NCBI RefSeq assembly: GCF_014839805.1
Contig: NC_051124.1
Location: 3,038,001-3,102,000 of the forward strand
DNA: 64,000 nt
Origin: Manduca sexta
Taxonomy: Eukaryota; Arthropoda; Insecta; Lepidoptera; Sphingidae
Direction: 5' to 3'
In this document: in pieces, positions 29,474 through 52,640 of the stretch
Position numbering within the stretch: the stretch's first letter is position 1
Layout of the letters: each line of letters begins with the position of its first letter
Made by a program: the position numbers and the translations under genes
Notes under the pieces: model-generated
The model's input: only the letters and a program-made list of their open reading frames with translations
Database searches by the model: none
Told to the model about the DNA's origin: nothing

Positions 29474-29709
29474 GTACCGATCTACATAAAATGTTATAGT
29501 ATTGTATAGTTCAAAGGACACGTCATTTGCCAGAAGATTGGTGAGGGATTATCGACCTTAAACGAAAGGCATAAAGATTAAGCAGAGGAGAGTACTTACC
29601 TATTTGTGCCTCTAAATTTCGCTCATTATACGAGAAACAGTTGTTATTTGATAAAGGTTTGCCGAGGGCTGAGAAAATAAGTATAGCGAGGACAATTTTT
29701 ATTTATTCT
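29474..29709. other. Nothing recognised
   Basis: No repeat or coding support. Confidence 0.5.
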
Positions 29710-30560: not shown

Positions 30561-30954
30561 AAGTCATTATTAAAAGAATAGACAAAAACGCTGAAAAGCT
30601 CCATCTGTTTTCGTTCCAAATGACTATTTTTCAAGACATATTTTACATGTCATGTTGACGTTTACACACGTTATATCAACACGTCTCGTAGTTCAAAGAG
30701 AGTTTGCGGTTCTGCCGAGTTCATATTGAGAAAAAGGAATGTAAAGCTATATTTATAGGTAATAAAAAGAACGATGTTTTCAATGTTATTTTTTAACTCA
30801 TTCATTATACAAATCTTGTATGATCAAACTCAAACGAATGGACACGGTTATAGGAAGATTATCCATATTAATTACTTTGAAAAACATATTATTTTATAAA
30901 GTAAGACTAAGTGATTGCAATGCATATGATAGTAAGCGCGATGTCTCTTTTTTA

Positions 30955-31209
30955 TTGCTTTGAATGACGAGAAGAGATTGCCGTTCGCCCGATGGTAAGC
31001 GATACGATAGCCTATAAACAGTAGAAACACCGTCCAACATCTTGAATTACAAAGTATTGTTTGATATTCCAATGCGCTCGCCATCCTGAGACATGAGATG
31101 TTAAATCTTATTATGTCCAGTGGTTACATTGGCTACACTGTCCTTTAAACTGGAACACAACAGCGACTCCATGCTACTTGGCGGCAGAAATAAACATTGC
31201 GGTGGTACC
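30955..31209 (+). repeat. Family B copy, left part, interrupted by Copia
   Basis: GATTGCCGTTCGCCCGATGG to ATTGCGGTGGTACC. The repeat resumes after the Copia element at 35677 with TACCCAGGCAGCC. Confidence 0.88.
31205..31209 (+). repeat. Copia target-site duplication, left (GTACC)
   Basis: Directly abuts the TG of the LTR. The partner is at 35672-35676. Confidence 0.92.
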
Positions 31210-31385
31210 TGTTGTAAATATGGTATATGTTCTTAGTAATTAAATAAAGTTAGTAAAAAGATGTTATTGACATGAGTGTTTATTTCGGACTAAAGAGAAG
31301 TAACTATGGCAAACAAAATACAATTAGTTCTAAAAATAGAACATATAAAAATAATAAGTCACGACGAAGGTTACAATCTCCAACA
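31210..31385 (-). repeat. Copia 3' LTR, copy 1 (176 bp)
   Basis: Matches 35495-35671 almost throughout. It differs from it at three sites near the TGGTATATGTTCTTAGTAATT segment and by one A in a homopolymer. Confidence 0.95.
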
Positions 31386-31394
31386 GCCGCCCTT
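31386..31394 (-). other. Putative polypurine tract
   Basis: Minus-strand AAGGGCGGC directly precedes the 3' LTR. This is the expected plus-strand primer position, though one C in each half makes it imperfect. Confidence 0.5.
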
Positions 31395-31431
31395 AATCGC
31401 AGTTGTGACAGAAACAAAACAAATAAAATAA

Positions 31432-32687
31432 TTAAGTTTCTAAACCTAAGTTAACTACACATCGTTTGTGTGCTAGAGGTCCGAGGGCCTTCGTTAGTAC
31501 ATCAGCAGGCATATCGTTACTTTTATATATTCTAACTTAACAATATTATTAGATACCTTTTCCTAATAAAGTGAAACCTAGTATCTATATGCTTCGTCCT
31601 GCTGTGGTGTACAGGATTTCGAACAAGATTAATGGCACTTTGGCTGTCAGAAGCTAAGTTAACTGAACAAAGTATACCTGTTATCTCGTATATAAACCGA
31701 CGTAAGTAACACGCTTCCTTCGTGGCAGACGCTAATGCCATATATTCTGACTCGGCCGAACTTAACGCAACAGTAGGTTGCTTCTTGGATTCCCATGATA
31801 CTGGACCTCCACTTAACTTGTAAACATAACCGGTGTATGACCTTCTGTCGATTGGACAGTTTGCCCAGTCTGCGTCACAAAAACCTTTAAAGGTTCTCTA
31901 TTCTTCCTGTAAACCAATGAATAGTTTAGGGTACCTTTTAGGTATTGCAGAATCCTTTTAGCAGCATTCCAGTGTTCTTTAGTAAAACACGTATTAAATT
32001 GACTTAAATAGCTCGTGGCGTAAGCGATGTCTGGTCGTGTGTTTACCGCTAGATACATGAGGCATCCTATTAAGTTTTGATAAGGATAAGACTCACCGAC
32101 TTGACCATCCGTTCTTTTTCCATATTCTTTTTAATTAATGGAGTATCCACGGCCTTACAATCCTTCATATTAAATTTTTCTAATATAGAAAGAATATAAT
32201 TTCGCTGGTTCAACCTTATACTCTCGGAATCACTTTCAACTTGTAGTCCCAAATAACATTTCAGTATTCCGAGATCTTTTAATGAAAAATATTTCGACAA
32301 ATCATTCTTGACAGTGTCAAATGTCAAATCAGAATTAAAGAAGACTATTATGTCATCAACAAAGATTCCTAATATTACAAGTTCTTTACCAAAAGTTTAG
32401 TATACACACAAGGTTCGGAAGGAGTTCCTATGAAACCTATTTTAGAAAGCGTTTCATTTAACTTTTTATTCCAAGCTCGCGGTGCCTGTTTAAGACCGTA
32501 AAGAGATTTCTTCAATAAACAAACTGGTTTCTTTACCCTTTTCAATAAAACCAAGAGGTTGCTCCATGAAAACTTCTTCTTCTAAATCTCCGTTAAGGAA
32601 AGCTGTATCGACATCTAAGTGCTTCATTCTCAACTTCATATCTGCAGCTATCGCAAACAACGTGCGGAGGGAAGAATGACGAATCAC
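31432..32687 (-). pseudogene. pol: Copia pol: reverse transcriptase and RNase H, copy 1, frameshifted
   Basis: This is the C-terminal half of the polyprotein, copying RNA to DNA and degrading the RNA template in virus-like particles. The RT fragment starting at 32687 has the copia motif LDVDTAFLNGDLEEE, in which the Asp after LDV is a catalytic carboxylate. The frame breaks near 32500, so the F-V-D-D active-site box, visible in copy 2, falls in another frame here. Later pieces at 32327-32070 and 32058-31813 carry DLGILKCYLGLQ and AVNTRPDIAYATSYLSQF, characteristic of copia RT ends. RNase H begins about 31741 with MALASATKEACYLRRF and has ASDSQSAI and HIDTRFHFIR. A frameshift follows, and the last residues (NDMPADVLTKALG and onward) lie in another frame and stop at TAA 31434-31432. 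Disrupted as assembled. Confidence 0.9.
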
Positions 32688-32710
32688 TGGTGCGAACGTC
32701 TCGTTGTAGT

Positions 32711-33982
32711 CTACACTTTCAACTTGATGAAAACCTTTGACGACGAGTCTCGCTTTATACTTGATAATATTACCATAAGCATCCCTTTTAATTTTGTAAA
32801 TCCATTTACATGGTATAACCTTTTGTTAGGTCTATCTACTAAATTCCATGTATGGAGTTTCCTTAAGGAACTATACTCATCAACCATAGCATGTTGCCAC
32901 TTATCAGCATCATCGGCATGAGTAGCTTCGTAATATGTCGTAGGTTCATTAGAATCTACCATTGACGTATTGTAAGCTTTATAAAAATTTGTTGTTTTTC
33001 TGTCTCTGGAAGGGTATCTGCGCTCAGGGTGCGATTCCTGTTCCAAATTCGCTGTCACTTCTTCCACACTAGGCATCCTTAAGTCACTGAGAGACTCTCG
33101 CTCTTCCAGAGTCACTGACTCTTTTGCACTTTCTAGATTTACTGGTAAAGTTGCTTCAGCCGCCGGGCTGATACTCTCATCACAGTCATAGAATTGACAG
33201 TCATGATCAAACTCAGACTCAATCTCTTTTAGCTCATCAAATAACAATATAGATTTTGCCTGTGCGACAGATTGCTTCTGCTTTAGCGCTGTAAAGCAAT
33301 TTTCAAAAAAGGTTGCATCTCTGGATATAATAACTTTTCGTGGGTTAGCAGGATCCCTAAAAATATAAGTGCCTGGATTTTCAGAATAACCGACGAAAAT
33401 TGCTTCCTGTGCCTTGACATCTAATTTCTTCCTGTGACACGAAGGTATATGGACTAGAGCTCTACAACCAAATACTTTTAGATGGCTAAGATCACCTTTT
33501 CGTCCATACCATTTGTCATAAGGAATTTGTCCACCTAAGGCTCGATGAGGAGACCTATTCTTAAGGTAAATGGCAACTTGGAATGCATCTTCCCAGAATG
33601 CTTTCGGTAGTGAACTTTCAGCTAGCAACGTTCTTGCCTTTTCTGTAACCGAACGATGGGTGCGTTCCGCTACTCCAACTTGCTGAGGACTATAAGGCGT
33701 CGTTGTTTGATGTTCTATACCTTTTGAAGCAAGATAATCAACAAACTCTTTATTCACGAACTCCTTACCTCCATCAGTCCTAATTGCTTTAATTGTTTTA
33801 TCTAACTGATTTTCAACAAAACATTGAAACACACAAAATATATCTTTGACTTCTGTTTTAGAAGAAATAAAATAAGCAAACACTTTTCGCGTATAATCGT
33901 CTACTATTGTCAACATATATCTATTTCCTTGAAAAGAAGTTGTAGACACCGGTCCCATCAAATCCATATGGATCAGTTCCAA
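32711..33982 (-). pseudogene. pol: Copia integrase core, linker and RT N-terminus, copy 1
   Basis: An uninterrupted 424-codon frame. The DDE integrase core lies within the first 150 residues: Asp in HMDLMGP (residue 7), Asp in RTDGGKEF (70), and Glu in VAERTHRS (106). The 35 residues between the second and third acids fit the D,D(35)E integrase rule. A VFGCRALVHIP segment and the long hydrophilic linker before RT are typical of copia. It joins the 3'-processed cDNA to the host genome. The frame opens with TTG only because a one-base frameshift separates it from the upstream zinc-finger part. The last 30 residues are off-frame after a further shift near 32820. Confidence 0.94.
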
Positions 33983-34197
33983 AGGGAAGTAGCCCTATTA
34001 AACGCTAACCTTTTGAAAGGTTTTCTTGCTTGTTTACCTTCCACGCAAGCGATACAACTAGTTTTATCTACTCCTGTATACTTTATACCTACCTTGTGAT
34101 TTTTCAGTTGGTTCATGCCTATACGACACAAATGTCCTAACCTCTTATGCCAAATTTGATAACTATCCTGACAGCCAGAGTGCACATCTTGTGTCAA
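33973..34197 (-). pseudogene. pol: Copia GAG-pre-integrase zinc-binding domain, copy 1
   Basis: The fragment has IWHKRLGHL followed 30 residues later by CIACVEGKQ. This is the H-H-C-C zinc site that starts retroviral-type integrases and helps multimerisation and DNA binding. It is one frame off both neighbours. The upstream break is in a T-run (about 34195) and the downstream break in a C-run (about 33990). Both breaks are present in copy 2 as well. Confidence 0.88.
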
Positions 34198-34237
34198 AAA
34201 TTATCCGCCACATTCTCGGAAACATTTACAGTACCAT

Positions 34238-35392
34238 CTAAAACGTACAGTCCACCACAGGGCGAGGCATGAGCAACAGATTCACCTGTAAAATTAAAAG
34301 TATCAGATTTATAAAAGTTACATCCATTTTTATCAAAACACAAATAAAACCCTTTTCAACAGTTTTATATACAGATAACAAACTAGCTTTCAAATCTGGT
34401 ATATAAGCAACATCACTAATATTGTTGACCACGTTCTCGGGCGTGTTTATTGAAATATTTCCAATTCCGCAGCACTTAATCTGTTCTCCATTTGCGACAG
34501 TAACAGTACCTTGATTCTGTATCGAGATATTCTGAAACCAGTCCCGTCTAGAAGTCATGTGTCTAGTACAACCTGAATCTACATAAATTATGTCCTTTCT
34601 TGGGTTTCCAGAAGTATTAAGACTTGTAAATATCGTATCATTGGTATTTACCGCATTGCCTTTCTCCTTCTTGTTTCTCTGTGGACAGTCTGGTCTCTTA
34701 TGTCCAGGTGTCTTGCACTCATAACAAACTATATTCTTCTTCATTGACTTAGGCTTCTTCTTCGCATGAAAGACAGAGTCTAATGATGTAGCCACATCTT
34801 TGGACATTTCATTAAGCAGTTTTGTTTTCACCAACTCTGTAGTCACGTCTACATTGCAATTTTCTAAAGCCATAATGAGAGGTTCATACCTTGGAGTTAG
34901 ACCTCCCAAAAGTATTGCAGCAATAGACTTGTCCTCTATGACTACATCAATATCCGCAAGATCCTGTGCGGTTGACATAACTGCGTTAATATATAGTTCA
35001 ATATTTTTGAACTCTGATAGACTCAACCTGTACAGTCTACGCTCCAAAATAATCTTCGTCCTATTCCCTTATCTTCAAAGGCTTTTTGCAAACAAGTCCA
35101 TGCCTCAGATGCAGTTTTCGCACATCTTATATGGGTTATCGCTGCACCTTCTACTGATAAGCATATCTTTGCTAATGCCTTTGCGTCTTTGCGTACCTTT
35201 GTAGAGGCAGGGGTTGTGTCTCCATCTCGGTATCCACTAATTGTTTCCCATAAATCCTCATGGATAAGGTAATTTCGCATCTTGAACTTCCAAGTCGGAT
35301 ATCCATCTTTTATCCTCAAACAAGGAAATGGAAAAGATGTGATCGACGCAGGAATTTTTCATACTCGAAACATCTCCAGATTCATGTGACAT
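34238..35392 (-). pseudogene. gag: Copia Gag and protease, copy 1, frameshifted
   Basis: Gag forms the particle and packages element RNA. An in-frame ATG at 35392 (MSHESGDVSSMK) is out of frame with the conserved Gag beginning DGYPTWKFKMRNYLI at about 35319, so one base is missing or extra there. A second frameshift lies near 35040 (A-run, five A in copy 2 and four here). The next frame (35047 onward) carries the C-C-H-C zinc knuckle CYECKTPGHKRPDC and about 35 residues later the aspartic protease motif YVDSGCTRHM. It then breaks at an A-run near 34344 that is intact in copy 2. Knuckle-to-protease order and spacing are standard for copia. Confidence 0.9.
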
Positions 35393-35476
35393 TTTCAGAC
35401 TATTACTATTTCCTAGTCACACAAAAAATATATTCAACTTTATTTTACTAAATAACGTGAAAAAACTAAGAACTAA

Positions 35477-35494
35477 GCGTTCGTGCTGATAACG
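35477..35494 (-). other. Copia primer-binding site, copy 1, internal tRNA-Ile-like
   Basis: Directly next to the 5' LTR. On the plus strand it reads TCGTGCTGATAAC (35481-35493) and then a one-base spacer before the LTR. From memory this equals nucleotides 27-39 of eukaryotic tRNA-Ile(AAU), anticodon stem and loop, except G for A at position 34. No match to a tRNA 3' acceptor end is seen. Confidence 0.6.
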
Positions 35495-35671
35495 TGTTGT
35501 AAATATGGTATGTGTTCTTGGCAATTAAATAAAGTTAGTAAAAAGATGTTATTGACATGAGTGTTTATTTCGGACTAAAGAGAAGTAACTATGGCAAACA
35601 AAATACAATTAGTTCTAAAAATAGAACATATAAAAAATAATAAGTCACGACGAAGGTTACAATCTCCAACA
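35495..35671 (-). repeat. Copia 5' LTR, copy 1 (177 bp)
   Basis: Starts TGTTGTAAATATGGTATGTG and ends CTCCAACA. The promoter for element transcription lies on the minus strand. It carries three transitions near its left end that are absent from the other three LTR sequences in the window. Confidence 0.95.
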
Positions 35672-35676
35672 GTACC
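35672..35676 (+). repeat. Copia target-site duplication, right (GTACC)
   Basis: Identical to 31205-31209. Confidence 0.92.
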
Positions 35677-35929
35677 TACCCAGGCAGCCTCCTACCAGTA
35701 AATGTCTGACAGAGTTTCGAAAGGCAACATATGTCTATCTAAAACCATTCGAGACAATCATGCCTACTGAACGGTTCGGCGGAAGCATCCAGGATTATAG
35801 GCAGAATAGAACACGAGCGAAGGCAAACTATTCTAAAGTCTGAGCTGCGGAAAGTTGGCGAATGGTGCGGGCGGTAATGGCTTTAACTATCAAGCTAGGG
35901 CTTCACATGTCAGCACGCGTGGGTCTTTA
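35677..35929 (+). repeat. Family B copy, part right of Copia
   Basis: TACCCAGGCAGCCTCCTACC continues the repeat interrupted at 31209. ATCCAGGATTATAGGCAGAA nearby recurs in reverse near 51.4 kb, so the family is longer than the common 300-bp core. Confidence 0.65.
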
Positions 35930-36445
35930 GTCATTATTCGAATATACATTAATAATAACGACTTAATTTACCTCTAGTAATCTCTTCTCCTTAAATACCC
36001 AACTCATAGCTCTGACTTTACTCACTGTTCTTTCGCTGTCCAATCTATTCTTCTATGGAATTCCCAACCGAAATCAGATCGTCGACCACTCGGTTTGCCT
36101 TCAAAAGAGAGTTCGACAGTTACTGAATGAAGCGGAATAGTCACCACCTTAACTTATAATATTACATTATATTCTTGTGTATGTATGTGTATTTATATGT
36201 TTATGTAATTATAATGTGTATTTTATGTATTTTGATAGTTACAATGTTACTTATATCGTATTTATAGTTATAATAGGTATTTTATATATTTATCTTCTTT
36301 CTCAGTGTCATATTACCGTGTAGCACCTACCATGATTATCTCTGCACCACCGTAAGGTTGACTGGTAGAGAATGCCTATGGTATTAAGTTTGCCTGTATA
36401 CATTTGTATATGAAGTGCTAATAAATAAAATAAATAAATAAAAAG
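35930..36445 (+). mobile_element. LINE 3' end with RT C-terminal remnant and A-rich tail, copy 1
   Basis: About 36010-36140 decodes in shifting frames to pieces such as FAVQSILLWNSQP and TTRFAFKREFDSY. These resemble the C-termini of Jockey/CR1-like reverse transcriptases. An AT-rich 3' UTR follows, with TTGACTGGTAGAGAATGCC, and the element ends in AATAAATAAAATAAATAAAT. It is 5'-truncated. Confidence 0.6.
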
Positions 36446-37330
36446 GGGCTTATTTGGGAGTATTTAAATAGCCTTATTAGTGATTCTACCCATGTTAAAA
36501 ACAATCCATATTACATTCCTGCTGCTTACTATGCTTTAAAAAAGGCATATAATATAACAATTCAGATTATGTTCTATCTGTATCCTAAATTTACTCCAAA
36601 ATTGTTCAATAATACCTCATTTACTTCTAACAAGCCTCTAGAGAATATCTTTACAATCTTATGCATCTGTAATATTAAGATCCGGAGATGACAAGATTGT
36701 TCGTCATTGAACTGGTACCTTTTTAGGGCACACGCCATAGATCTCTGAGCGGTGGTTGTATCGCGATAAAAAGTTGTATTTATAGTCAAATTTAAATTTT
36801 ATTTCTTCAACCGTTGTATAAATATATAAAATAAAACCAGATAAAGCGTCTTGAGTGGTTCATGAACTATAAAATCGTATAATGCATAAGCCGATGCCAA
36901 AAGTAATAAACCCTACATAAAAGGAGTGCGCAATGACGTCATCGCGGCTGCAATTATAATATATTTACAAATATAGATATATAATAACTTTGTGAATGTG
37001 TTTCTAGGGAGATAATCTTTGAAACTACTACGAACTTACGGCAAAGTTCTAAGCTGGATTTTGAACCTTATGCTGTGAACTAAGAGTGTAATCTTGGGAA
37101 CTTTCTTTCACGCTACAACAAAAGTCTCTTAAGCTCGTGTTTGAATGTAATTTTAATATAATGAGGCTTTAGATCATACTGAGTGTTTATTTTGCTTCAA
37201 GGAAGAGCACACTGCTAGGATTTGTCAAATACTGAACACAATGTTTATTTTTTTTATTTTTATACTTCAAACGCTTCTGACCTTTTATTTTGTATACAAA
37301 GCATAGAATTTTAATGACGGTAATAAAAAT
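36446..37330. other. AT-rich stretch, nothing recognised
   Basis: Includes CAATGACGTCATCGCGGCTG near 36930 (a CRE-like TGACGTCA). Repeated as 46760-47646 in the second block. Confidence 0.45.
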
Positions 37331-37340
37331 AAAAAAAAAA
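37331..37340 (-). terminator. Pol III-type T-run after the tRNA-like gene, copy 1
   Basis: Ten T on the minus strand begin directly after the discriminator base. Confidence 0.6.
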
Positions 37341-37421
37341 CAGCTCGTGAGGGATTTGAACCCCCGACCTCCACTTATAGGCATTTCTAGATGGGTGCTC
37401 TTACCGCTGAGCTAACGAGCC
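37341..37421 (-). tRNA. tRNA-like gene with aberrant anticodon arm, copy 1
   Basis: On the minus strand, 81 nt begin GGCTCGT and end ACGAGCT plus G, forming a 7-bp acceptor stem with one G-U. The D arm is GCTC-AGCGGTAA-GAGC (A box TTAGCTCAGCGG), and the T arm GGGGG-TTCAAAT-CCCTC gives a consensus-like B box GGTTCAAATCCC. Between D arm and variable loop lie 25 nt instead of 17, and I cannot fold a good 5-bp anticodon stem with a 7-nt loop. An intron placed after position 37 leaves two stem mismatches. So the ends look functional but amino-acid identity cannot be assigned. It may be a tRNA pseudogene or tRNA-derived RNA. Only one CCA-less copy per block. Confidence 0.6.
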
Positions 37422-39258
37422 TGTTGCGCAATTGACATAATAACAGACCATTATAATATACAATGGATGACGTCATCATAAATGATTAATATTACTTTTA
37501 GAGCTCCATAATTTTGTCTGTATGCTCGGATGTTTTTACCTAAAAGGACCGTCGCATATATGATTGAATTCAGTGAAGAGATTTTTTACTGTCACACTAT
37601 TATCGACGTTGTCTTCATTGAAATAATATTCAAAATCAATTAACACAACAATATTTTTTTTGCCCTTATGATAGATCGAAAAAGCGATTGAGATTATTTA
37701 TTGAAAATGGCCATACAGAATAGTTTTTAATTAATAAAAATAAAGGAACGTGGTATGTAGATGAGACCAGGTTTTATAATTGCGCAGTCGCAATTTTTGT
37801 TTATATCATGTTAATGACTAAGCTATGACGAGTTGAAATATTCATAAATTCTGAATATAATGGGTACAACACGTAGCAACTTCCCACCGAGGCAATTCTT
37901 GTACGCTCGCTCTTCATACCGAATGTAGGTACCCTATGAACAAGGAGGACATTTACAACGGCTCTAGACATACTGTCCAGTGTGTATACCTCATAAACTA
38001 CAGTTGAGGCCTGAGGACTCTCGAATATTTCCTGGCCTCCCTTCCGCTTATTTTGAGAAGGTTCCACTCCGTGCCGGGTTCATATTTTTTATGAGTGTAT
38101 GCCACTTTATTTCCGCCGCCCCGTGTAGCTAGGTTTATGTATGTATGTTTCTAAAATACTTAATAATGTTCCATTTGTTTGTATTATGGAAGGCACTAAA
38201 GTTAAATAAACGAATGGTTAATTAAATTAAGTGAGCGTGCTCTTAAATCTGCCGCCTCTTAGAGGCTGCCGCCCATAGGCCGCAGCCTATACGGCCTATT
38301 TACAAATTTAGGACTGGTTCCACTAGTGTTGACGGCGTCCGATAATAAAAACATGTGTTTATGGGCGGGCGGTCGTATCGTTTACCATCAGGCGAACGTC
38401 ATGCGTCATCATTCAATTGTAAAAAACCTATCGAAATATAATTCGCCCGATAAAAGCGTGGAGCTTGGAAGTTGTGAAAAGGGTTGAATTTCAACAAAAT
38501 AATATTGAGCCGGTAATAATATCCTTAATCCGACTTCCGAGGAGTTTGTAAATTTACCTTTTCATAACTTCCTCGACTCAAACAATAATCCAAAATAACA
38601 AAATGAATTATCATATTTTTGTTATTAAAACTCTGTTTAAATTTTTCTTTGTGAGAAACTTTTACGTTTTAAATTATGACTGATATTTCTTGTTTTTTTT
38701 GTAAATGTGAAATAGATTAGAGGATGGTAACTGCAGAGAGAGTCATAATCCCGTAGCAGCCATGTTTCATTTATTTTTATACGGCCTGCAAAGATAATTT
38801 AGTTATGGTGCCACGAGCCTCAACGTTACTTCATTGACCTACTTACGTTTCTAAAACTTTATTATTTAACGTGTTATTTATTTTAATATAAGGTATTCAC
38901 AAATTCATTGAGGTGAGTTTTTATTTAGACGAAAAGTATTCAGCTCAAGTGTTTTTTTTTTTTTTTACTTTTAATGAAAGTTCCCATATTAGATGTGCCA
39001 TTTGGAAAAGTTCAGCGGGCCGCATGCAATAGCGCCGCGGGTCGCATGTACGCGCTCTGCGGCCTGCAGATTTGGTGTAGCTGTCCTAGAGCATGCACCA
39101 TGATGTAATTTCTTTGAAACAATAAATATATATTTCTGCTTTATTTCCTTTAAGTTGGTATAATTATAAATTTGAAATATTGTGATGGTATTCTATTTTA
39201 ATTCTCAACTAAATAAATAAGGATAATTAAAAATAAGTCGAGCATAACTATCTTCACA
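37422..39258. other. Mostly unrecognised, with small repeat scraps
   Basis: 38226-38345 is a GC-richer patch (CTGCCGCCTCTTAGAGGCTG). 38359-38412 is a family B scrap (CGTATCGTTTACCATCAGGC). 38995-39070 is another GC-rich patch (GGGCCGCATGCAATAGCGCC). No gene is supported. Confidence 0.45.
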
Positions 39259-39400
39259 TATTATAAAACAAAAACCGCCGCTGCGTCTGTCTGAACTCGA
39301 TAAACTCAAAAACCGAACGCATTTCGATGAAATTTTGTATGGAGAAAGTCGGATACCCTGGAAAGAACATATACTTTTTTATTTCGTGATAACTAATACG
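39259..39400 (+). mobile_element. Helitron-internal module fragment, copy 1
   Basis: AACCGCCGCTGCGTCTGTCTG-type start, AAATTTTGTATGGAGAAAGT and GGAAAGAACATATAC parallel 23163-23290 of the large Helitron. Confidence 0.5.
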
Positions 39401-39689
39401 CGTGCCAAACTGAGAGCATAGGCTTATATAACACAAATAATATGCAAGATCCTGTACCATAGATTGAGGAAAATGTATTTTTATGACTGCATAATAGCAT
39501 TCAGGCCCGGTAATGATAAGGCGGCCATGTGCGGTCAGTTAACGCCACAGGAATAATTTGATCCGCTCTTATGTGTCATTATCGATTGAATGACGTCAAA
39601 CGGAATCAAAATGTACAGCATATTGCAATGACATCGGTATGGTTTGATAGTATTATGTTCAGAAATGTAGATAAATATAGCGTAACTCC

Positions 39690-39972
39690 AGTCCTACTGC
39701 TGGGCACAGGCCTCCTCTACTATCGAGAGGGATTATGTCTTAGTCCACCACGCTGGCCTAGTGCGGATTGGCAGACTTCCCACATCTTCGAAATTCCTAT
39801 AGAGAACTTCTCAGATGTGCAGCTTTCCTCACGATTTGTTAAAGCGAACGATAAATTCACAAAGAATACACACATGATTTTAGAAAAGTCAGAGGTGTGT
39901 GCCCTTGGAATTTGAACCTGCGGACATTCGTCTTGGCAGTCCGTTCCACAACCAACTAGGCTATCACCGCTT
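39690..39972 (-). mobile_element. SINE-A copy in block 1
   Basis: Tail CTACTGCTGGGCACAGGCCT, head GAATTTGAACCTGCGGACAT and CAACCAACTAGGCTATCACC. A deletion removes TTTTCCTTCACC near 39835. The 114-codon frame across it is a shadow. Confidence 0.87.
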
Positions 39973-40174
39973 TAATTTAATCATTATTATGATTGGTTAA
40001 TTTTTGTTGGCGATCCTAATCGATAACTATGGATTAAACGAAAGCTAGTAGATTAATTTATCAATTATGAGAATCAACATAAGTCTTTAGTATTTATTCA
40101 TGTGATTGACCCATGGCTGTCAATTGTTTAGAGATATAATCGATAAGATCATTCGATTCCGTAAACATTGCTGG

Positions 40175-40386
40175 TGGTAGGATATATTTTATATCAGCCC
40201 GGATAGCGACCACCGTATACAAGGTGTTAAAACCCGCCATAGTGATCCACGGAAGTGTGTTGCATTTTGAGATTAGCCTGTGTATTGCTGTTTCAACAGG
40301 CAGGCATAATTGTAACGATTGTCGAAGGGCAATCATGTCTCGGCAGTCGAGTAGGGGTGCAGTCGCTTTGCCATGCGCATATAAAA
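40175..40386 (+). repeat. Family C copy in block 1
   Basis: The most complete forward copy: GTAGGATATATTTTATATCA, GGATAGCGACCACCGTATAC, CCGCCATAGTGATCCACGGA, CAGGCAGGCATAATTGTAAC and GTGCAGTCGCTTTGCCATGC. Confidence 0.82.
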
Positions 40387-40829
40387 AATTAAAATATAAA
40401 GTATTTTTGCGTAATGTGCAGCTGTCTTTGTTTTAATGAAGCTAGAATGATTGAAGCTACTGGACATTATGGATAGCAAGATGCAAAACTCAGGGTACCT
40501 TTAAATGATATTGCTTTAGTAGCAGAGGCGGCCTTTAGGGGAGAAAAACCGGGCAACTGAACGGGTGGCTACGCTGCAACTGTCGTGTTCACAAGGCACG
40601 TCGCTTATAAGGGCCTCGCGCGGTGACTTGGAGGACCTTTTTTTCGTTCTTACTGACAAAAGTATTAAAACCGTTTTATATAAAAATATTTTACTTAATA
40701 TTTTTAAAATTTAGAATTCTTACATTTTACATTTTCTAACTATTATGTCCATGACAACATTTTAAAACACAACGAATTTTTAATTGAATGCCGTCACGTG
40801 TCACATACAAGCAAAGTCTAGTCTAGAGA
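40387..40829. other. Unrecognised, partly GC-rich
   Basis: 40520-40640 (GCAGAGGCGGCCTTTAGGGG, AGGGCCTCGCGCGGTGACTT) is GC-rich and probably element-derived. Present again at 50840-50960. Confidence 0.4.
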
Positions 40830-41329
40830 NNNNNNNNNNNNNNNNNNNNNNNNNNNNNNNNNNNNNNNNNNNNNNNNNNNNNNNNNNNNNNNNNNNNNNN
40901 NNNNNNNNNNNNNNNNNNNNNNNNNNNNNNNNNNNNNNNNNNNNNNNNNNNNNNNNNNNNNNNNNNNNNNNNNNNNNNNNNNNNNNNNNNNNNNNNNNNN
41001 NNNNNNNNNNNNNNNNNNNNNNNNNNNNNNNNNNNNNNNNNNNNNNNNNNNNNNNNNNNNNNNNNNNNNNNNNNNNNNNNNNNNNNNNNNNNNNNNNNNN
41101 NNNNNNNNNNNNNNNNNNNNNNNNNNNNNNNNNNNNNNNNNNNNNNNNNNNNNNNNNNNNNNNNNNNNNNNNNNNNNNNNNNNNNNNNNNNNNNNNNNNN
41201 NNNNNNNNNNNNNNNNNNNNNNNNNNNNNNNNNNNNNNNNNNNNNNNNNNNNNNNNNNNNNNNNNNNNNNNNNNNNNNNNNNNNNNNNNNNNNNNNNNNN
41301 NNNNNNNNNNNNNNNNNNNNNNNNNNNNN
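40830..41329. other. Assembly gap, 500 N
   Basis: Exactly 500 undetermined bases, a placeholder length used in scaffolding. The open frames drawn across it are meaningless. Confidence 0.98.
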
Positions 41330-41514
41330 AACACCGTCCAACATCTTGAATTTACAAAGTATTGTTTGATATTCCAATGCGCTCGCCATCCTGAGACATG
41401 ATGTTAAAATCTTATTATGTCCAGTGGTTACATTGGCTACACTGTCCCTTTAAACTGGAACACAACAGCGACTCCATGCTACTTGGCGGCAGAAATAAAC
41501 ATTGCGGTGGTACC
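41330..41514 (+). repeat. Family B left part before Copia, copy 2
   Basis: Equivalent of 31026-31209, truncated on the left by the gap. GTACC at 41510-41514 is the target duplication. Confidence 0.88.
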
Positions 41515-41691
41515 TGTTGTAAATATGGTATATGTTCTTAGTAATTAAATAAAGTTAGTAAAAAGATGTTATTGACATGAGTGTTTATTTCGGACTAAAG
41601 AGAAGTAACTATGGAAAACAAAATACAATTAGTTCTAAAATTATAACATATAAAAAAGAATAAGTCACGACGAAGGTTACCACCTCCAACA
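41515..41691 (-). repeat. Copia 3' LTR, copy 2
   Basis: 177 bp. Carries clustered differences (ATGGAAAACA, AAAATTATAACAT, TTACCACCTCC) absent from the other LTRs, close to the contig end. Confidence 0.93.
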
Positions 41692-41737
41692 GCCGCCCTT
41701 AATCGCAGTTGTCACAGAAACAACATAACTAAAAGAC

Positions 41738-42995
41738 TTAAGTTTCTAAACCCAAGTTAACTACACATCGTGTGGGTGCTAGAGGTCCGAGGGCCTTCGT
41801 TAGTACATCAGCAGGCATATCGTTACTTTTATATATTCTAACTTAACAATATTATTAGATACCTTTTCCCTAATAAAGTGAAACCTAGTATCTATATGCT
41901 TCGTCCTGCTGTGGTGTACAGGATTTCGAACAAGATTAATGGCACTTTGGCTGTCAGAAGCTAAGTTAACTGAACAAAGTATACCTGTTATCTCGTATAT
42001 AAACCGACGTAAGTAACACGCTTCCTTCGTGGCAGACGCTAATGCCATATATTCTGACTCGGCCGAACTTAACGCAACAGTAGGTTGCTTCTTGGATTCC
42101 CATGATACTGGACCTCCACTTAACTTGTAAACATAACCGGTGTATGACCTTCTGTCGATTGGACAGTTTGCCCAGTCTGCGTCACAAAACCCTTTAAAGG
42201 TTCTCTATTCTTCCTGTAAACCAATGAATAGTTTAGGGTACCTTTTAGGTATTGCAGAATCCTTTTAGCAGCATTCCAGTGTTCTTTAGTAAAACACGTA
42301 TTAAATTGACTTAAATAGCTCGTGGCGTAAGCGATGTCTGGTCGTGTGTTTACCGCTAGATACATGAGGCATCCTATTAAGTTTTGATAAGGATAAGACT
42401 CACCGACTTGACCATCCATTCTTTTTCCATATTCTTTTAATTAATGGAGTATCCACGGCCTTACAATCCTTCATATTAAATTTTTCTAATATAGAAAGAA
42501 TATAATTTCGCTGTTCATCCTTATACTCTCGGAATCACTTTCAACTTGTAGTCCCAAATAACATTTCAGTATTCCGAGATCTTTTAATGAAAAATATTTC
42601 GACAAATCATTCTTGACAGTGTCAAATGTCAAATCAGAATTAAAGAAGACTATTATGTCATCAACAAAGATTCCTAATATTACAAGTTCTTTACCAAAAA
42701 GTTTAGTATACACACAAGGTTCGGAAGGAGTTCCTATGAAACCTATTTTAGAAAGCGTTTCATTTAACTTTTTATTCCAAGCTCGCGGTGCCTGTTTAAG
42801 ACCGTAAAGAGATTTCTTCAATAAACAAACTTTGTTTTCTTTACCCTTTTCAATAAAACCAAGAGGTTGCTCCATGAAAACTTCTTCTTCTAAATCTCCG
42901 TTAAGGAAAGCTGTATCGACATCTAAGTGCTTCATTCTCAACTTCATATCTGCAGCTATCGCAAACAACGTGCGGAGGGAAGAATGACGAATCAC
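41738..42995 (-). pseudogene. pol: Copia RT and RNase H, copy 2
   Basis: RT is better preserved than in copy 1. One frame (42995-42486) contains LDVDTAFLNGDLEEE, the KKSLYGLKQAPRAWNKK segment and the active-site box GIFVDDIIVFF (F-V-D-D in place of the commoner Y-V-D-D). After a frameshift near 42515, the RT tail (42419-42120) and the RNase H frame (42048-41800, ASDSQSAI, HIDTRFHFIRE) follow. The end of the true C-terminus again lies in another frame, stopping at 41740-41738. Confidence 0.9.
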
Positions 42996-43018
42996 TGGTG
43001 CGAACGTCTCGTTGTAGT

Positions 43019-44288
43019 CTACACTTTCAACTTGATGAAAACCTTTGACGACGAGTCTCGCTTTATACTTGATAATATTACCATAAGCATCCCTTTTAAT
43101 TTTGTAAATCCATTTACATGGTATAACCTTTTGTTAGGTCTATCTACTAAATTCCATGTATGGAGTTTCCTTAAGGAACTATACTCATCAACCATAGCAT
43201 GTTGCCACTTATCAGCATCATCGGCATGAGTAGCTTCGTAATATGTCGTAGGTTCATTAGAATCTACCATTGACGTATTGTAAGCTTTATAAAAATTTGT
43301 TGTTTTTCTGTCTCTGGAAGGGTATCTGCGCTCAGGGTGCGATTCCTGTTCCAAATTCGCTGTCACTTCTTCCACACTAGGCATCCTTAAGTCACTGAGA
43401 GACTCTCGCTCTTCCAGAGTCACTGACTCTTTTGCACTTTCTAGATTTACTGGTAAAGTTGCTTCAGCCGCCGGGCTGATACTCTCATCACAGTCATAGA
43501 ATTGACAGTCATGATCAAACTCAGACTCAATCTCTTTTGCTCATCAAATAACAATATAGATTTTGCCTGTGCGACAGATTGCTTCTGCTTTAGCGCTGTA
43601 AAGCAATTTTCAAAAAGGTTGCATCTCTGGATATAATAACTTTTCGTGGGTTAGCAGGATCCCTAAAAATATAAGTGCCTGGATTTTCAGAATAACCGAC
43701 GAAAATTGCTTCCTGTGCCTTGACATCTAATTTCTTCCTGTGACACGAAGGTATATGGACTAGAGCTCTACAACCAAATACTTTTAGATGGCTAAGATCA
43801 CCTTTTCGTCCATACCATTTGTCATAAGGAATTTGTCCACCTAAGGCTCGATGAGGAGACCTATTCTTAAGGTAAATGGCAACTTGGAATGCATCTTCCC
43901 AGAATGCTTTCGGTAGTGAACTTTCAGCTAGCAACGTTCTTGCCTTTTCTGTAACCGAACGATGGGTGCGTTCCGCTACTCCAACTTGCTGAGGACTATA
44001 AGGCGTCGTTGTTTGATGTTCTATACCTTTTGAAGCAAGATAATCAACAAACTCTTTATTCACGAACTCCTTACCTCCATCAGTCCTAATTGCTTTAATT
44101 GTTTTATCTAACTGATTTTCAACAAAACATTGAAACACACAAAATATATCTTTGACTTCTGTTTTAGAAGAAATAAAATAAGCAAACACTTTTCGCGTAT
44201 AATCGTCTACTATTGTCAACATATATCTATTTCCTTGAAAAGAAGTTGTAGACACCGGTCCCATCAAATCCATATGGATCAGTTCCAA
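43019..44288 (-). pseudogene. pol: Copia integrase and linker, copy 2
   Basis: The integrase core (44288-43590) has the same three acidic residues as copy 1. It is cut at 43610, where an A-run is one base shorter, and again at 43540, where an A of TTTTAGCTC is missing. The linker resumes at 43423-43019. Copy 1 is open through both positions, so these two breaks are private to this copy. Confidence 0.92.
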
Positions 44289-44503
44289 AGGGAAGTAGCC
44301 CTATTAAACGCTAACCTTTTGAAAGGTTTTCTTGCTTGTTTACCTTCCACGCAAGCGATACAACTAGTTTTATCTACTCCTGTATACTTTATACCTACCT
44401 TGTGATTTTTCAGTTGGTTCATGCCTATACGACACAAATGTCCTAACCTCTTATGCCAAATTTGATAACTATCCTGACAGCCAGAGTGCACATCTTGTGT
44501 CAA
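44279..44503 (-). pseudogene. pol: Copia GAG-pre-integrase domain, copy 2
   Basis: Identical in translation to 33973-34197 (WHKRLGHL, CIACVEGKQ), with the same breaks on both sides. Confidence 0.88.
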
Positions 44504-45701
44504 AAATTATCCGCCACATTCTCGGAAACATTTACAGTACCATCTAAAACGTACAGTCCACCACAGGGCGAGGCATGAGCAACAGATTCACCTGTAAAAT
44601 TAAAAGTATCAGATTTATAAAAGTTACATCCATTTTTATCAAAAACACAAATAAAACCCTTTTCAACAGTTTTATATACAGATAACAAACTAGCTTTCAA
44701 ATCTGGTATATAAGCAACATCACTAATATTGTTGACCACGTTCTCGGGCGTGTTTATTGAAATATTTCCAATTCCGCAGCACTTAATCTGTTCTCCATTT
44801 GCGACAGTAACAGTACCTTGATTCTGTATCGAGATATTCTAAAACCAGTCCCGTCTAGAAGTCATGTGTCTAGTACAACCTGAATCTACATAAATTATGT
44901 CCTTTCTTGGGTTTCCAGAAGTATTAAGACTTGTAAATATCGTATCATTGGTATTTACCGCATTGCCTTTCTCCTTCTTGTTTCTCTGTGGACAGTCTGG
45001 TCTCTTATGTCCAGGTGTCTTGCACTCATAACAAACTATATTCTTCTTCATTGACTTAGGCTTCTTCTTCGCATGAAAGACAGAGTCTAATGATGTAGCC
45101 ACATCTTTGGACATTTCATTAAGCAGTTTTGTTTTCACCAACTCTGTAGTCACGTCTACATTGCAATTTTCTAAAGCCATAATGAGAGGTTCATACCTTG
45201 GAGTTAGACCTCCCAAAAGTATTGCAGCAATAGACTTGTCCTCTATGACTACATCAATATCCGCAAGATCCTGTGCGGTTGACATAACTGCGTTAATATA
45301 TAGTTCAATATTTTTGAACTCTGATAGACTCAACCTGTACAGTCTACGCTCCAAAAATAATCTTCGTCCTATTCCCTTATCTTCAAAGGCTTTTTGCAAA
45401 CAAGTCCATGCCTCAGATGCAGTTTTCGCACATCTTATATGGGTTATCGCTGCACCTTCTACTGATAAGCATATCTTTGCTAATGCCTTTGCGTCTTTGC
45501 GTACCTTTGTAGAGGCAGGGGTTGTGTCTCCATCTCGGTATCCACTAATTGTTTCCCATAAATCCTCATGGATAAGGTAATTTCGCATCTTGAACTTCCA
45601 AGTCGGATATCCATCTTTTATCCTCAAACAAGGAAATGGAAAAGATGTGATCGACGCAGGGAATTTTTCATACTCGAAACATCTCCAGATTCATGTGACA
45701 T
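44500..45701 (-). pseudogene. gag: Copia Gag and protease, copy 2
   Basis: Gag is open for 263 codons from about 45627 to 44839, spanning the site that is frameshifted in copy 1. It includes the zinc knuckle CYECKTPGHKRPDC and YVDSGCTRHM. It then ends at a substitution near 44841, where CAG (Gln) of copy 1 is TAG. The downstream protease remainder (44739-44500) is open. The N-terminal ATG at 45701 is out of frame here too, but with a different base count from copy 1. Confidence 0.9.
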
Positions 45702-45783
45702 TTTCAGACTATTACTATTTCCTAGTCACACAAAAATATATTCAACTTTATTTTACTAAATAACGTGAAAAACTAAGAACTAA

Positions 45784-45801
45784 GCGTTCGTGCTGATAAC
45801 G
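45784..45801 (-). other. Copia primer-binding site, copy 2
   Basis: Same sequence as 35477-35494. Confidence 0.6.
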
Positions 45802-45978
45802 TGTTGTAAATATGGTATATGTTCTTAGTAATTAAATAAAGTTAGTAAAAAGATGTTATTGACATGAGTGTTTATTTCGGACTAAAGAGAAGTAACTATG
45901 GCAAACAAAATACAATTAGTTCTAAAAATAGAACATATAAAAAATAATAAGTCACGACGAAGGTTACAATCTCCAACA
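45802..45978 (-). repeat. Copia 5' LTR, copy 2
   Basis: 177 bp. At the three sites where 35495-35671 is unusual it agrees with the 3' LTRs. Confidence 0.95.
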
Positions 45979-45983
45979 GTACC

Positions 45984-46759
45984 TACCCAGGCAGCCTCCT
46001 ACCAGTAAATGTCTGACAGAGTTTCGAAAGGCAACATATGTCTATCTAAAACCATTCGAGACAATCATGCCTACTGAACGGTTCGGCGGAAGCATCCAGG
46101 ATTATAGGCAGAATAGAACACGAGCGAAGGCAAACTATTCTAAAGTCTGAGCTGCGGAAAAGTTGGCGAATGGTGCGGGCGGTAATGGCTTTAACTATCA
46201 AGCTAGGGCTTCACATGTCAGCACGCGTGGGTCTTTAGTCATTATTCGAATATACATTAATAATAACGACTTAATTTACCTCTAGTAATCTCTTCTCCTT
46301 AAATACCCAACTCATAGCTCTGACTTTACTCACTGTTCTTTCGCTGTCCAATCTATTCTTCTATGGAATTCCCAACCGAAATCAGATCGTCGACCACTCG
46401 GTTTGCCTTCAAAAAGAGAGTTCGACAGTTACTGCTGAATGAAGCGGAATAGTCACCACCTTAACTTATAATATTACATTATATTCTTATGTATATATGT
46501 ATATTTATATGTTTATGTAATTATAATGTGTATTTTATGTATTTTGATAGTTACAATGTTACTTATATCGTATTTATAGTTATAATAGGTATTTTATATA
46601 TTTATCTTCTTTCTCAGTGTCATATTACCGTGTAGCACCTACCATGATTATCTCTGCACCACCGTAAGGTTGACTGGTAGAGAATGCCTATGGTATTAAG
46701 TTTGCCTGTATACATTTGTATATGAAGTGCTAATAAATAAAATAAATAAATAAAAAAGG
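45984..46759 (+). mobile_element. Family B right part and LINE 3' end, copy 2
   Basis: Equivalent of 35677-36445, with a CTG insertion near 46433 and a longer A-run near 46413. Confidence 0.6.
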
Positions 46760-47647
46760 GGCTTATTTGGGAGTATTTAAATAGCCTTATTAGTGATTCT
46801 ACCCATGTTAAAAACAATCCATATTACATTCCTGCTGCTTACTATGCTTTAAAAAAGGCATATAATATAACAATTCAGATTATGTTCTATCTGTATCCTA
46901 AATTTACTCCAAAATTGTTCAATAATACCTCATTTACTTCTAACAAGCCTCTAGAGAATATCTTTACAATCTTATGCATCTGTAATATTAAGATCCGGAG
47001 ATGACAAGATTGTTCGTCATTGAACTGGTACCTTTTTAGGGCACACGCCATAGATCTCTGAGCGGTGGTTGTATCGCGATAAAAAGTTGTATTTATAGTC
47101 AAATTTAAATTTTATTTCTTCAACCGTTGTATAAATATATAAAATAAAACCAGATAAAGCGTCTTGAGTGGTTCATGAACTATAAAATCGTATAATGCAT
47201 AAGCCGATGCCAAAAGTAATAAACCCTACATAAAAAGGAGTGCGCAATGACGTCATCGCGGCTGCAATTATAATATATTTACAAATATAGATATATAATA
47301 ACTTTGTGAATGTGTTTCTAGGGAGATAATCTTTGAAACTACTTCACGAACTTACGGCAAAGTTCTAAGCTGGATTTTGAACCTTATGCTGTGAACTAAG
47401 AGTGTAATCTTGGGAACTTTCTTTCACGCTACAACAAAAGTCTCTTAAGCTCGTGTTTGAATGTAATTTTAATATAATGAGGCTTTAGATCATACTGAGT
47501 GTTTATTTTGCTTCAAGGAAGAGCACACTGCTAGGATTTGTCAAATACTGAACACAATGTTTATTTTTTTTATTTTTATACTTCAAACGCTTCTGACCTT
47601 TTATTTTGTATACAAAGCATAGAATTTTAATGACGGTAATAAAAATA

Positions 47648-47657
47648 AAAAAAAAAA
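47648..47657 (-). terminator. Pol III-type T-run, copy 2
   Basis: T-run directly after the tRNA-like gene, one base longer than in copy 1. Confidence 0.55.
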
Positions 47658-47738
47658 CAGCTCGTGAGGGATTTGAACCCCCGACCTCCACTTATAGGCA
47701 TTTCTAGATGGGTGCTCTTACCGCTGAGCTAACGAGCC
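47658..47738 (-). tRNA. tRNA-like gene, copy 2
   Basis: All 81 bases equal 37341-37421, including the unusual anticodon region, so that oddity is not a single-read error. Confidence 0.6.
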
Positions 47739-49581
47739 TGTTGCGCAATTGACATAATAACAGACCATTATAATATACAATGGATGACGTCATCATAAAT
47801 GATTAATATTACTTTTAGAGCTCCATAATTTTGTCTGTATGCTCGGATGTTTTTATCTAAAAGGACCGTCGCATATATGATTGAATTCAGTGAAGAGATT
47901 TTTTTACTGTCACACTATTATCGACGTTGTCTTCATTGAAATAATATTCAAAATCAATTAACACAACAATATTTTTTTTGCCCTTATGATAGATCGAAAA
48001 AGCGATTGAGATTATTTATTGAAAATGGCCATACAGAATAGTTTTTAATTAATAAAAATAAAGGAACGTGGTATGTAGATGAGACCAGGTTTTATAATTG
48101 CGCAGTCGCAATTTTTGTTTATATCATGTTAATGACTAAGCTATGACGAGTTGAAATATTCATAAATTCTGAATATAATGGGTACAACACGTAGCAACTT
48201 CCCACCGAGGCAATTCTTGTACGCTCGCTCTTCATACCGAATGTAGGTACCCCTATGAACAAGGGGACATTTACAACGGCTCTAGACATACTGTCCAGTG
48301 TGTATACCTCATGGTTGTAACTACAGTTGAGGCCTGAGGACTCTCGAATATTTCCTGGCCTCCCTTCCGCTTATTTTGAGAAGGTTCCACTCCGTGCCGG
48401 GTTCATATTTTTTATGAGTGTATGCCACTTTATTTCCGCCGCCCCGTGTAGCTAGGTTTATGTATGTATGTTTCTAAAATACTTAATAATGTTCCATTTG
48501 TTTGTATTATGGAAGGCACTAAAGTTAAATAAACGAATGGTTAATTAAATTAAGTGAGCGTGCTCTTAAATCTGCCGCCTCTTAGAGGCTGCCGCCCATA
48601 GGCCGCAGCCTATACGGCCTATTTACAAATTTAGGACTGGTTCCACTAGTGTTGACGGCGTCCGATAATAAAAAAAAACATGTAGTTTATGGGCGGTCGT
48701 ATCGTTTACCATCAGGCGAACGTCATGCGTCATCATTCAATTGTAAAAAACCTATCGAAATATAATTCGCCCGATAAAAGCGTGGAGCTTGGAAGTTGTG
48801 AAAAGGGTTGAATTTCAACAAAATAATATTGAGCCGGTAATAATATCCTTAATCCGACTTCCGAGGAGTTTGTAAATTTACCTTTTCATAACTTCCTCGA
48901 CTCAAACAATAATCCAAAATAACAAAATGAATTATCATATTTTTGTTATTAAAACTCTGTTTAAATTTTTCTTTGTGAGAAACTTTTACGTTTTAAATTA
49001 TGACTGATATTTCTTGTTTTTTTTGTAAATGTGAAATAGATTAGAGGATGGTAACTGCAGAGAGAGGTCATAATCCCGTAGCAGCCATGTTTCATTTATT
49101 TTTATACGGCCTGCAAAGATAATTTAGTTATGGTGCCACGAGCCTCAACGTTACTTCATTGACCTACTTACGTTTCTAAAAACTTTATTATTTAACGTGT
49201 TATTTATTTTAATATAAGGTATTCACAATTCATTGAGTGAGTTTATTAGACGAAAAGTATTCAGCTCAAGTGTTTTTTTTTTTTTTTACTTTTAATGAAA
49301 GTTCCCATATTAGATGTGCCATTTGGAAAAGTTCAGCGGGCCGCATGCAATAGCGCCGCGGGTCGCATGTACGCGCTCTGCGGCCTGCAGATTTGGTGTA
49401 GCTGTCCTAGAGCATGCACCATGATGTAATTTCTTTTGAAACAATAAATATATATTTCTGCTTTATTTCCTTTAAGTTGGTATAATTATAAATTTGAAAT
49501 ATTGTGATGGTATTCTATTTTAATTCTCAACTAAATAAATAAGGATAATTAAGAAATAAGTCGAGCATAACTATCTTCACA
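47739..49581. other. Unrecognised, equivalent of 37422-39258
   Basis: Several block-specific indels (near 48250, 48312, 48670 and 49225). No gene is supported. Confidence 0.45.
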
Positions 49582-49723
49582 TATTATAAAACAAAAACCG
49601 CCGCTGCGTCTGTCTGAACTCGATAAACTCAAAAACCGAACGCATTTCGATGAAATTTTGTATGGAGAAAGTCGGATACCCTGGAAAGAACATATACTTT
49701 TTTATTTCGTGATAACTAATACG
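49582..49723 (+). mobile_element. Helitron-internal module fragment, copy 2
   Basis: Equivalent of 39259-39400. Confidence 0.5.
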
Positions 49724-50012
49724 CGTGCCAAACTGAGAGCATAGGCTTATATAACACAAATAATATGCAAGATCCTGTACCATAGATTGAGGAAAATGTA
49801 TTTTTATGACTGCATAATAGCATTCAGGCCCGGTAATGATAAGGCGGCCATGTGCGGTCAGTTAACGCCACAGGAATAATTTGATCCGCTCTTATGTGTC
49901 ATTATCGATTGAATGACGTCAAACGGAATCAAAATGTACAGCATATTGCAATGACATCGGTATGGTTTGATAGTATTATGTTCAGAAATGTAGATAAATA
50001 TAGCGTAACTCC

Positions 50013-50295
50013 AGTCCTACTGCTGGGCACAGGCCTCCTCTACTATCGAGAGGGATTATGTCTTAGTCCACCACGCTGGCCTAGTGCGGATTGGCAGACT
50101 TCCCACATCTTCGAAATTCCTATAGAGAACTTCTCAGATGTGCAGCTTTCCTCACGATTTGTTAAAGCGAACGATAAATTCACAAAGAATACACACATGA
50201 TTTTAGAAAAGTCAGAGGTGTGTGCCCTTGGAATTTGAACCTGCGGACATTCGTCTTGGCAGTCCGTTCCACAACCAACTAGGCTATCACCGCTT
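50013..50295 (-). mobile_element. SINE-A copy in block 2
   Basis: Equivalent of 39690-39972. Confidence 0.87.
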
Positions 50296-50497
50296 TAATT
50301 TAATCATTATTATGATTGGTTAATTTTTGTTGGCGATCCTAATCGATAACTATGGATTAAACGAAAGCTAGTAGATTAATTTATCAATTATGAGAATCAA
50401 CATAAGTCTTTAGTATTTATTCATGTGATTGACCCATGGCTGTCAATTGTTTAGAGATATAATCGATAAGATCATTCGATTCCGTAAACATTGCTGG

Positions 50498-50709
50498 TGG
50501 TAGGATATATTTTATATCAGCCCGGATAGCGACCACCGTATACAAGGTGTTAAAACCCGCCATAGTGATCCACGGAAGTGTGTTGCATTTTGAGATTAGC
50601 CTGTGTATTGCTGTTTCAACAGGCAGGCATAATTGTAACGATTGTCGAAGGGCAATCATGTCTCGGCAGTCGAGTAGGGGTGCAGTCGCTTTGCCATGCG
50701 CATATAAAA
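50498..50709 (+). repeat. Family C copy in block 2
   Basis: Equivalent of 40175-40386. Confidence 0.82.
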
Positions 50710-51254
50710 AATTAAAATATAAAGTATTTTTGCGTAATGTGCAGCTGTCTTTGTTTTAATGAAGCTAGAATGATTGAAGCTACTGGACATTATGGATAGC
50801 AAGATGCAAAACTCAGGGTACCTTTAAATGATATTGCTTTAGTAGCAGAGGCGGCCTTTAGGGGAGAAAAACCGGGCAACTGAACGGGTGGCTACGCTGC
50901 AACTGTCGTGTTCACAAGGCACGTCGCTTATAAGGGCCTCGCGCGGTGACTTGGAGGACCTTTTTTTCGTTCTTACTGACAAAAGTATTAAAACCGTTTT
51001 ATATAAAAATATTTTACTTAATATTTTTAAAATTTAGAATTCTTACATTTTACATTTTCTAACTATTATGTCCATGACAACATTTTAAAACACAACGAAT
51101 TTTTAATTGAATGCCGTCACGTGTCACATACAAGCAAAGTCTAGTCTAGAGAGGTATAAAATCCTGCGGTAGACTAGACTTAATTGTATTGTGCACTTTG
51201 CGGTGCCTGATAAAAACAAAATTGCTCTGACCGTGTTCTGCTGGCTGGAAAATT

Positions 51255-51420
51255 GATCGTATGCGAGAATCCGTCTGGGTAGACCACCGCAATATCTGTT
51301 TCTGCTGCTGAGTTTCGTTCAAGCACAACTGTTCTTTGTTGCACCATCAGGCTTTGGAATAGTTGTCATGGGCGTGTATTCCCTTCTCCCTATAATCCTG
51401 GGACCTTCCGATACAGCCTG
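51255..51420 (-). repeat. Family B distal part, decayed
   Basis: GCGAGAATCCGTCTGGGTAG, ACCGCAATATCTGTTTCTGC and CCCTATAATCCTGGGACC are the reverse of the outer family B sequence at 31.2 and 35.8 kb. Confidence 0.55.
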
Positions 51421-52439: not shown

Positions 52440-52640
52440 TAAAATACTGTATGACGCAGCATGTATGTGTGGGCTGACTATTAGAAGACCGCGGAATAAA
52501 GTGGTGATGGATCAGTGTGAAGTGAATAGAAAAAAAATTAAAGTTATGCTTAGATGGTTTGGACATTTGAAGAAGCCAAGATTTGCACATAGAAGGCTTA
52601 TAATGAAGATATAGATATAAGGTGAGTGCGAATGGAAGAG
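52440..52640 (+). pseudogene. LINE reverse transcriptase C-terminal remnant
   Basis: The second half of a 125-codon frame (52237-52614) reads KIKVMLRWFGHLKK after a run beginning GLTIRR. L-R-W-x-G-H is the signature near the C-terminus of many insect LINE reverse transcriptases. The N-terminal part of the frame does not look related. It is a short truncated relic, clade not determined. Confidence 0.5.

Follow-up and report, generated by a model that had tools for sequence, protein, structure and literature searches.

Two near-identical 9.8-kb blocks facing a 500-N gap in a Manduca sexta chromosome probably represent an uncollapsed overlap of neighbouring contigs

Introduction

Among the described classes of mis-assembly, the duplicated overlapping contigs (DOC) of Kelley and Salzberg (2010; PMC2864568) offer a close parallel to the stretch of Manduca sexta DNA analysed here—a 64-kb window (C10:3038001-3102000) in which two near-identical 9.8-kb blocks, each containing a Copia-type retrotransposon insertion and a transfer RNA (tRNA)-like gene, meet at a run of 500 Ns. 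As in DOC, the contigs involved are neighbours on one chromosome, their end overlap mimics a segmental duplication, and the match reaches the contig ends; unlike most DOC, which are shorter than 2 kb, the overlap in this case extends over 9.8 kb, and the differences within it are mainly one-letter insertions or deletions (indels). Table 1 of that study lists the overlapping neighbour contigs judged to be mis-assembled as 5,698 of 5,947 in chicken, 13,159 of 13,571 in chimpanzee, 1,094 of 1,366 in cow and 8 of 22 in dog; the judgement was based on mate pairs, and the remainder had either consistent pairs or too few data. From sequence comparisons, we consider it highly probable that the apparent 9.8-kb duplication in M. 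sexta is likewise an uncollapsed suffix-prefix overlap of neighbouring contigs, i.e., an assembly error and not biology.

The pair also resembles the targets of purge_dups (PMC7203741), namely suffix-prefix overlaps retained between primary contigs—which, to the knowledge of the authors of that tool, scaffolders using long-range information do not handle. Unlike the heterozygous overlaps described in the same source, few of the differences found here resemble heterozygous sites. The pair further shares with the false duplications of PMC9516828 that its near-identical copies lie on the same scaffold and are separated by a gap; that study counts such a gap among the signs of false duplication. 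The block differences resemble the error-driven homotype kind of that study, in which the types are defined by depth and k-mers. As for the spacer, 500 Ns were placed between contigs of a beetle genome after 3D-DNA scaffolding (PMC10320752). Additionally, overlapping contigs arising from undercollapsed heterozygosity have been described in the Hi-C scaffolds of Aedes aegypti AaegL5 (PMC6421076). That assembly and the present one have in common adjacent, overlapping insect contigs in chromosome-length scaffolds; unlike those studied here, the AaegL5 overlaps were merged.

Geometry of the block pair and its flanks

The only N run in the window is exactly 500 bases long (40830-41329), and it alone separates two contigs set side by side in the chromosome sequence. 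Copy 1 of the block (31026-40829, forward strand) forms the suffix of the left contig (contig A), and copy 2 (41330-51152, forward strand) forms the prefix of the right contig (contig B, C10:3079330-3233017). The two copies aligned in blastn with 99.157% identity over 9841 columns, with 28 mismatches and 39 gap openings, and 0 bases lie between this match and the gap on the left side and on the right side alike—a dovetail whose length and identity (9.8 kb at 99%) cannot be the product of chance. In a gap-aware global alignment, the copies proved letter-identical over their first 23 and their last 1599 bases. Position 31026 sits within a dispersed repeat (30948-31210 resembles 17558-17823 at 88%), which fits an arbitrary contig start.

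The flanks were compared with the whole assembly (470 Mb in 4056 sequences), using 3.7 kb per side. A second full copy of the left flank (26000-29700) was not found in the assembly, its matches amounting to a dispersed repeat of about 260 bp and a few short, weak hits; the same was true of the right flank (51200-54900), which returned a dispersed repeat of about 300 bp and two short, weak matches. From within the block, a 1-kb piece (36500-37500) gave full-length matches at the two blocks and nowhere else. The remaining 23 match rows were all of 106 bp or less, with 22 of them located over the tRNA-like gene, and neither a third copy nor an unplaced haplotig of this piece was found in the assembly. 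These results bear out the geometry given in the first-pass annotation, which had been made from the letters of the window and had described two near-identical 9.8-kb blocks meeting at a 500-N gap, with copy 1 ending at the first N and copy 2 beginning directly after the last one; its further statement that copy 2 runs on into unique sequence holds for the tested 51200-54900, short repeats aside.

The same searches bear on a possible mis-join, in which contigs that are not neighbours would have been brought together from two loci sharing a 9.8-kb repeat. Wrong joins may occur in this assembly, as the contig tail beside the next gap, described below, is also found on C14. However, the full matches of the 1-kb piece at the two blocks only indicate that the block is not a dispersed repeat, and it would be a strange coincidence for a 9.8-kb match to stop precisely where both contigs do; we therefore regard a mis-join as extremely improbable. 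A different possibility is that at least 9.8 kb, including both the tRNA-like gene and the Copia insertion, were truly duplicated in tandem very recently and that the gap conceals the junction between units. The dovetail alone would fit units whose middle fell into the gap, and the high identity of the blocks is equally compatible with such an event. No sequenced unit-to-unit junction was seen in the window, where a join of this kind would fall in the N gap, and the case for a duplication is taken up again below with the evidence from the Copia insertion and from a control region.

Differences between the two copies

The global alignment contains 25 substitutions and 41 indel events. Gain or loss of one kind of letter accounts for 35 of the 41 indels, and these one-letter indels touch 16 of approximately 64 runs of five or more, versus 4 of approximately 5085 single bases (runs counted in copy 2). 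A tendency of copy 1 to carry the shorter run was considered and is not firm (copy 1 is the shorter one in 23 of the 35 one-letter indels, p = 0.09). The substitutions are concentrated in one place: 12 of the 25 fall within 160 bp (31310-31469 in copy 1, 41615-41775 in copy 2), at a distance of 285-445 bp from the contig B tip. When substitutions were placed at random, 12 of 25 fell in any 160 bp in 0 of 20000 draws. The 285 bp closest to the contig B tip contain indels only and no substitution, which means that the divergence does not rise smoothly towards the contig end. Among the 13 substitutions outside the tip cluster, distributed over some 9.35 kb, only 3 are isolated, i.e., more than 20 bp away from any other difference. 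Judging by these patterns, the divergence between the copies seems to be mostly error-like.

The differences also bear on whether the blocks could represent two distinct haplotypes, with contig A ending in one allele and contig B starting with the other—a heterotype false duplication. The heterotype kind is named in PMC9516828 as the main source of false duplications in the assemblies of that study, and the indels of 3 to 5 bases, together with the 3 isolated substitutions, could be allelic. Yet such isolated substitutions number just 3 outside the tip cluster, identity is complete over the last 1599 bases, the tip cluster seems to be peculiar to contig B (see the next section), and the tested flanks have no alternative copy in the assembly. 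With isolated substitutions so few, consensus error at the contig ends, or near-identical haplotypes, is favoured over clearly divergent haplotypes. Overall, we hold two distinct haplotypes to be a tentative explanation, less probable than its absence, and the probability given to it is a portion of that assigned to the contig overlap as a whole and not additional to it. Provided that the blocks are a contig overlap, contig ends that stem from one haplotype, or from nearly identical ones, and were separated by error appear somewhat the better account, while a sizeable minority share of the probability goes to two clearly distinct haplotypes; the preference for consensus error as the cause is a leaning only. 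The first-pass annotation had characterized the differences as mainly homopolymer indels plus some substitutions, in agreement with the counts above, and had attributed them to two haplotypes or unpolished ends. Of these two sources, consensus error at the contig ends is the one favoured by the present data, whereas haplotypes are less supported, given the 12 of 25 clustered substitutions and the 3 isolated ones.

The shared Copia insertion and the contig B tip

Each block contains the same Copia-type long terminal repeat (LTR) retrotransposon on the minus strand, located at 31210-35671 in copy 1 (target duplication GTACC at 31205-31209 and 35672-35676) and at 41515-45978 in copy 2 (GTACC at 41510-41514 and 45979-45983). 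The LTRs span 31210-31385 and 35495-35671 in copy 1, and 41515-41691 and 45802-45978 in copy 2. Their ends are of the TG...CA type, with TGTTG...CAACA in both copies, and GTACC borders the outer side of every LTR. Ordered by coordinates along the element strand, the Pfam matches follow the Ty1/Copia arrangement of Copia-type gag, integrase and RVT_2 reverse transcriptase—PF14223 and PF22936, then PF00665 and PF25597 in copy 1, and PF07727 in copy 2—with no Pfam match for the piece of 121 amino acids (aa) nearest the left LTR. The gag protein of the element had 30 matches, the best-named of which are from Lepidoptera, with weaker ones including a dragonfly, a fungus gnat and a leaf beetle; by itself, this mobile element would make a moth or butterfly the probable host.

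That the insertion and its GTACC target duplication are present in both blocks, as initially proposed, is correct, but the claim that they prove a single locus counted twice does not follow, as they indicate only common descent. The shared insertion is not decisive because a recent tandem duplication would share the insertion and the target duplication too. A comparison of the whole element with three other copies of the family revealed 8 events at which the blocks agree with each other but with none of the three, in support of a single Copia insertion event. At the 35 positions where the blocks themselves differ, copy 2 is the odd one in 22 cases and copy 1 in 10, with 3 ambiguous; since the three family copies differ by 43 to 74 events and one aligned only in part, the polarity of any single site is approximate. 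When the four LTRs were compared with one another, the left LTR of copy 2 was odd at six substitutions, the right LTR of copy 1 at three substitutions and the left LTR of copy 1 at one gap.

The 12-substitution cluster near the contig B tip (41615-41775) was examined against the same family across the assembly. For the copy 1 stretch (31210-31493), 40 of 650 candidate loci were scored including the query itself, a 41st row being a partial match; the same full score was obtained at 15 of the 39 other scored loci, and the rounded table gave 100% at all 39. For the copy 2 stretch (41515-41799), 40 of 623 candidate loci were scored including itself, and all 39 others were at 94-95%. The tip-cluster version was carried by none of these 39 other scored loci (40 scored of 623 candidates) and thus appears to be confined to contig B. 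Derivation of the cluster from a different Copia copy, by gene conversion or mis-polishing, is unsupported for the same set (0 of 39 other loci scored, from 623 candidates).

Separately, the identity of 284 bp, comprising the left LTR of copy 1 and its inner edge, at 15 of 39 scored others suggests that this Copia family is young or recently active.

A control region and the second gap

Self-matches longer than 500 bp were collected from a 314-kb control region (C10:3038001-3352000), which contains two 500-N gaps and a lone N; the second gap is located at C10:3233018-3233517. Seven such self-matches were found, five of which had identities of 81.9-91.5% and two of which exceeded 97%. Besides the 9.8-kb blocks, the pairs above 97% include C10:3211231-3218427 versus C10:3233518-3240717 (7.2 kb, 99.78%). 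In both pairs, the right copy begins at the first base after a 500-N gap (two of two gaps), and no pair above 97% and 500 bp was found inside a contig in the 314 kb. The members of the second pair are separated by 1 substitution and 11 indels. All 11 are one-letter events and 10 lie in runs of five or more, with the substitution and the eleventh indel falling within the last 15 bases of the match. This pair might show how two consensus sequences of the same DNA look in this assembly.

These observations are central to the choice between a contig overlap and the tandem duplication introduced above. We prefer an overlap because the long near-identical repeats of the 314 kb coincide with gaps (two of two, none inside a contig), because the differences are error-like, and because of the published base rates of mis-assembled neighbour-contig overlaps. 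The same kind of one-letter indels separating the pair at the next gap also speaks against a duplication, and no unit junction is seen in the window, although one would be expected to lie in the gap. We judge a duplication quite unlikely, even though it would produce the observed geometry, the high identity and a Copia insertion shared together with its target duplication.

The sequence between the second pair and the second gap was also examined. A 4-kb piece of this 14.6-kb contig B tail (C10:3218428-3233017) has one other near-identical copy, on C14. The C14 match starts at C14:3253958, equivalent to C10:3218422, within a few bases of the point at which the second pair switches; to the left of it, C14 consists of N-free sequence with no match in the 314 kb. 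The first 1.56 kb of the C10/C14 match are only 96.5% identical. The end of contig B was probably joined wrongly to C14 sequence, in which case the next contig would be the true continuation; less probably, a real interchromosomal copy exists on C10 and C14. The second-gap pair contains minus-strand reading frames of 221 to 615 aa, one of which has weak P-loop/STAND-like nucleoside triphosphatase (NTPase) matches (NPHP3_N, best E 2.7e-05).

Proposed origin of the duplication

The initial suggestion of a probable uncollapsed contig overlap is strengthened by the gap-linked pairs (two of two), the tested flanks, which are single copy apart from short repeats, and the one-letter indels like those at the next gap. 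In the sequence of events that we propose, a single 9.8-kb locus would have entered the assembly two times, at the end of contig A and again at the start of contig B. These ends would have been left unmerged by the assembler, probably since their consensus sequences disagree in homopolymer lengths at many places and at the divergent contig B tip; a scaffolder would then have lined up the contigs on either side of a fixed 500-N spacer, leaving the overlap uncollapsed. The true order on the chromosome would accordingly read left flank, a single block in which the Copia insertion and the tRNA-like gene each occur once, and right flank.

Several points weigh against this explanation. A very recent tandem duplication interrupted by a gap would show the same geometry, shared insertion and low divergence, and the indels of 3 to 5 bases and the 3 isolated substitutions may be real variation. 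The match at the second gap stops 14.6 kb short of the end of its contig and is not a clean dovetail; two gaps are, in addition, a small sample. The scoring of the tip version took 40 of 623 candidates, with the copy 1 locus absent from the list. Finally, only 8 of 22 overlaps in the dog assembly were judged errors (PMC2864568), which means that the mis-assembly rate varies by assembly. With these points considered, the pair is, as far as can be read from its letters, almost certainly an ordinary assembly artefact—biologically ordinary and not a real feature.

If so, the tRNA-like gene, the Copia insertion and the surrounding DNA are counted twice in this assembly. Claims on copy number or tandem duplication beside its 500-N gaps call for caution, and the next gap of the same scaffold adds another gap-linked near-identical repeat as well as a contig tail also present on C14.

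The tRNA-like gene and other features of the window

The tRNA-like gene lies on the minus strand at 37341-37421 in copy 1 (Rfam tRNA, 48.9 bits) and is counted again, with identical letters and on the same strand, at 47658-47738 in copy 2. ARAGORN assigned no anticodon to it, and its relatives at 85-90% cluster on C2 near 5.9 Mb. A scan for host genes started from 163 stop-free frames of at least 62 aa, of which 119 were kept; the frames set aside lie in the Copia stretch and the bulk of copy 2. A comparison of 114 of these 119 frames with Pfam revealed no convincing host gene across the overlap (best E 0.014), the other 5 being located in the end of copy 2. To the left of the blocks, positions 22665-23033 contain a tandem array of three 123-bp units with 91% matches.

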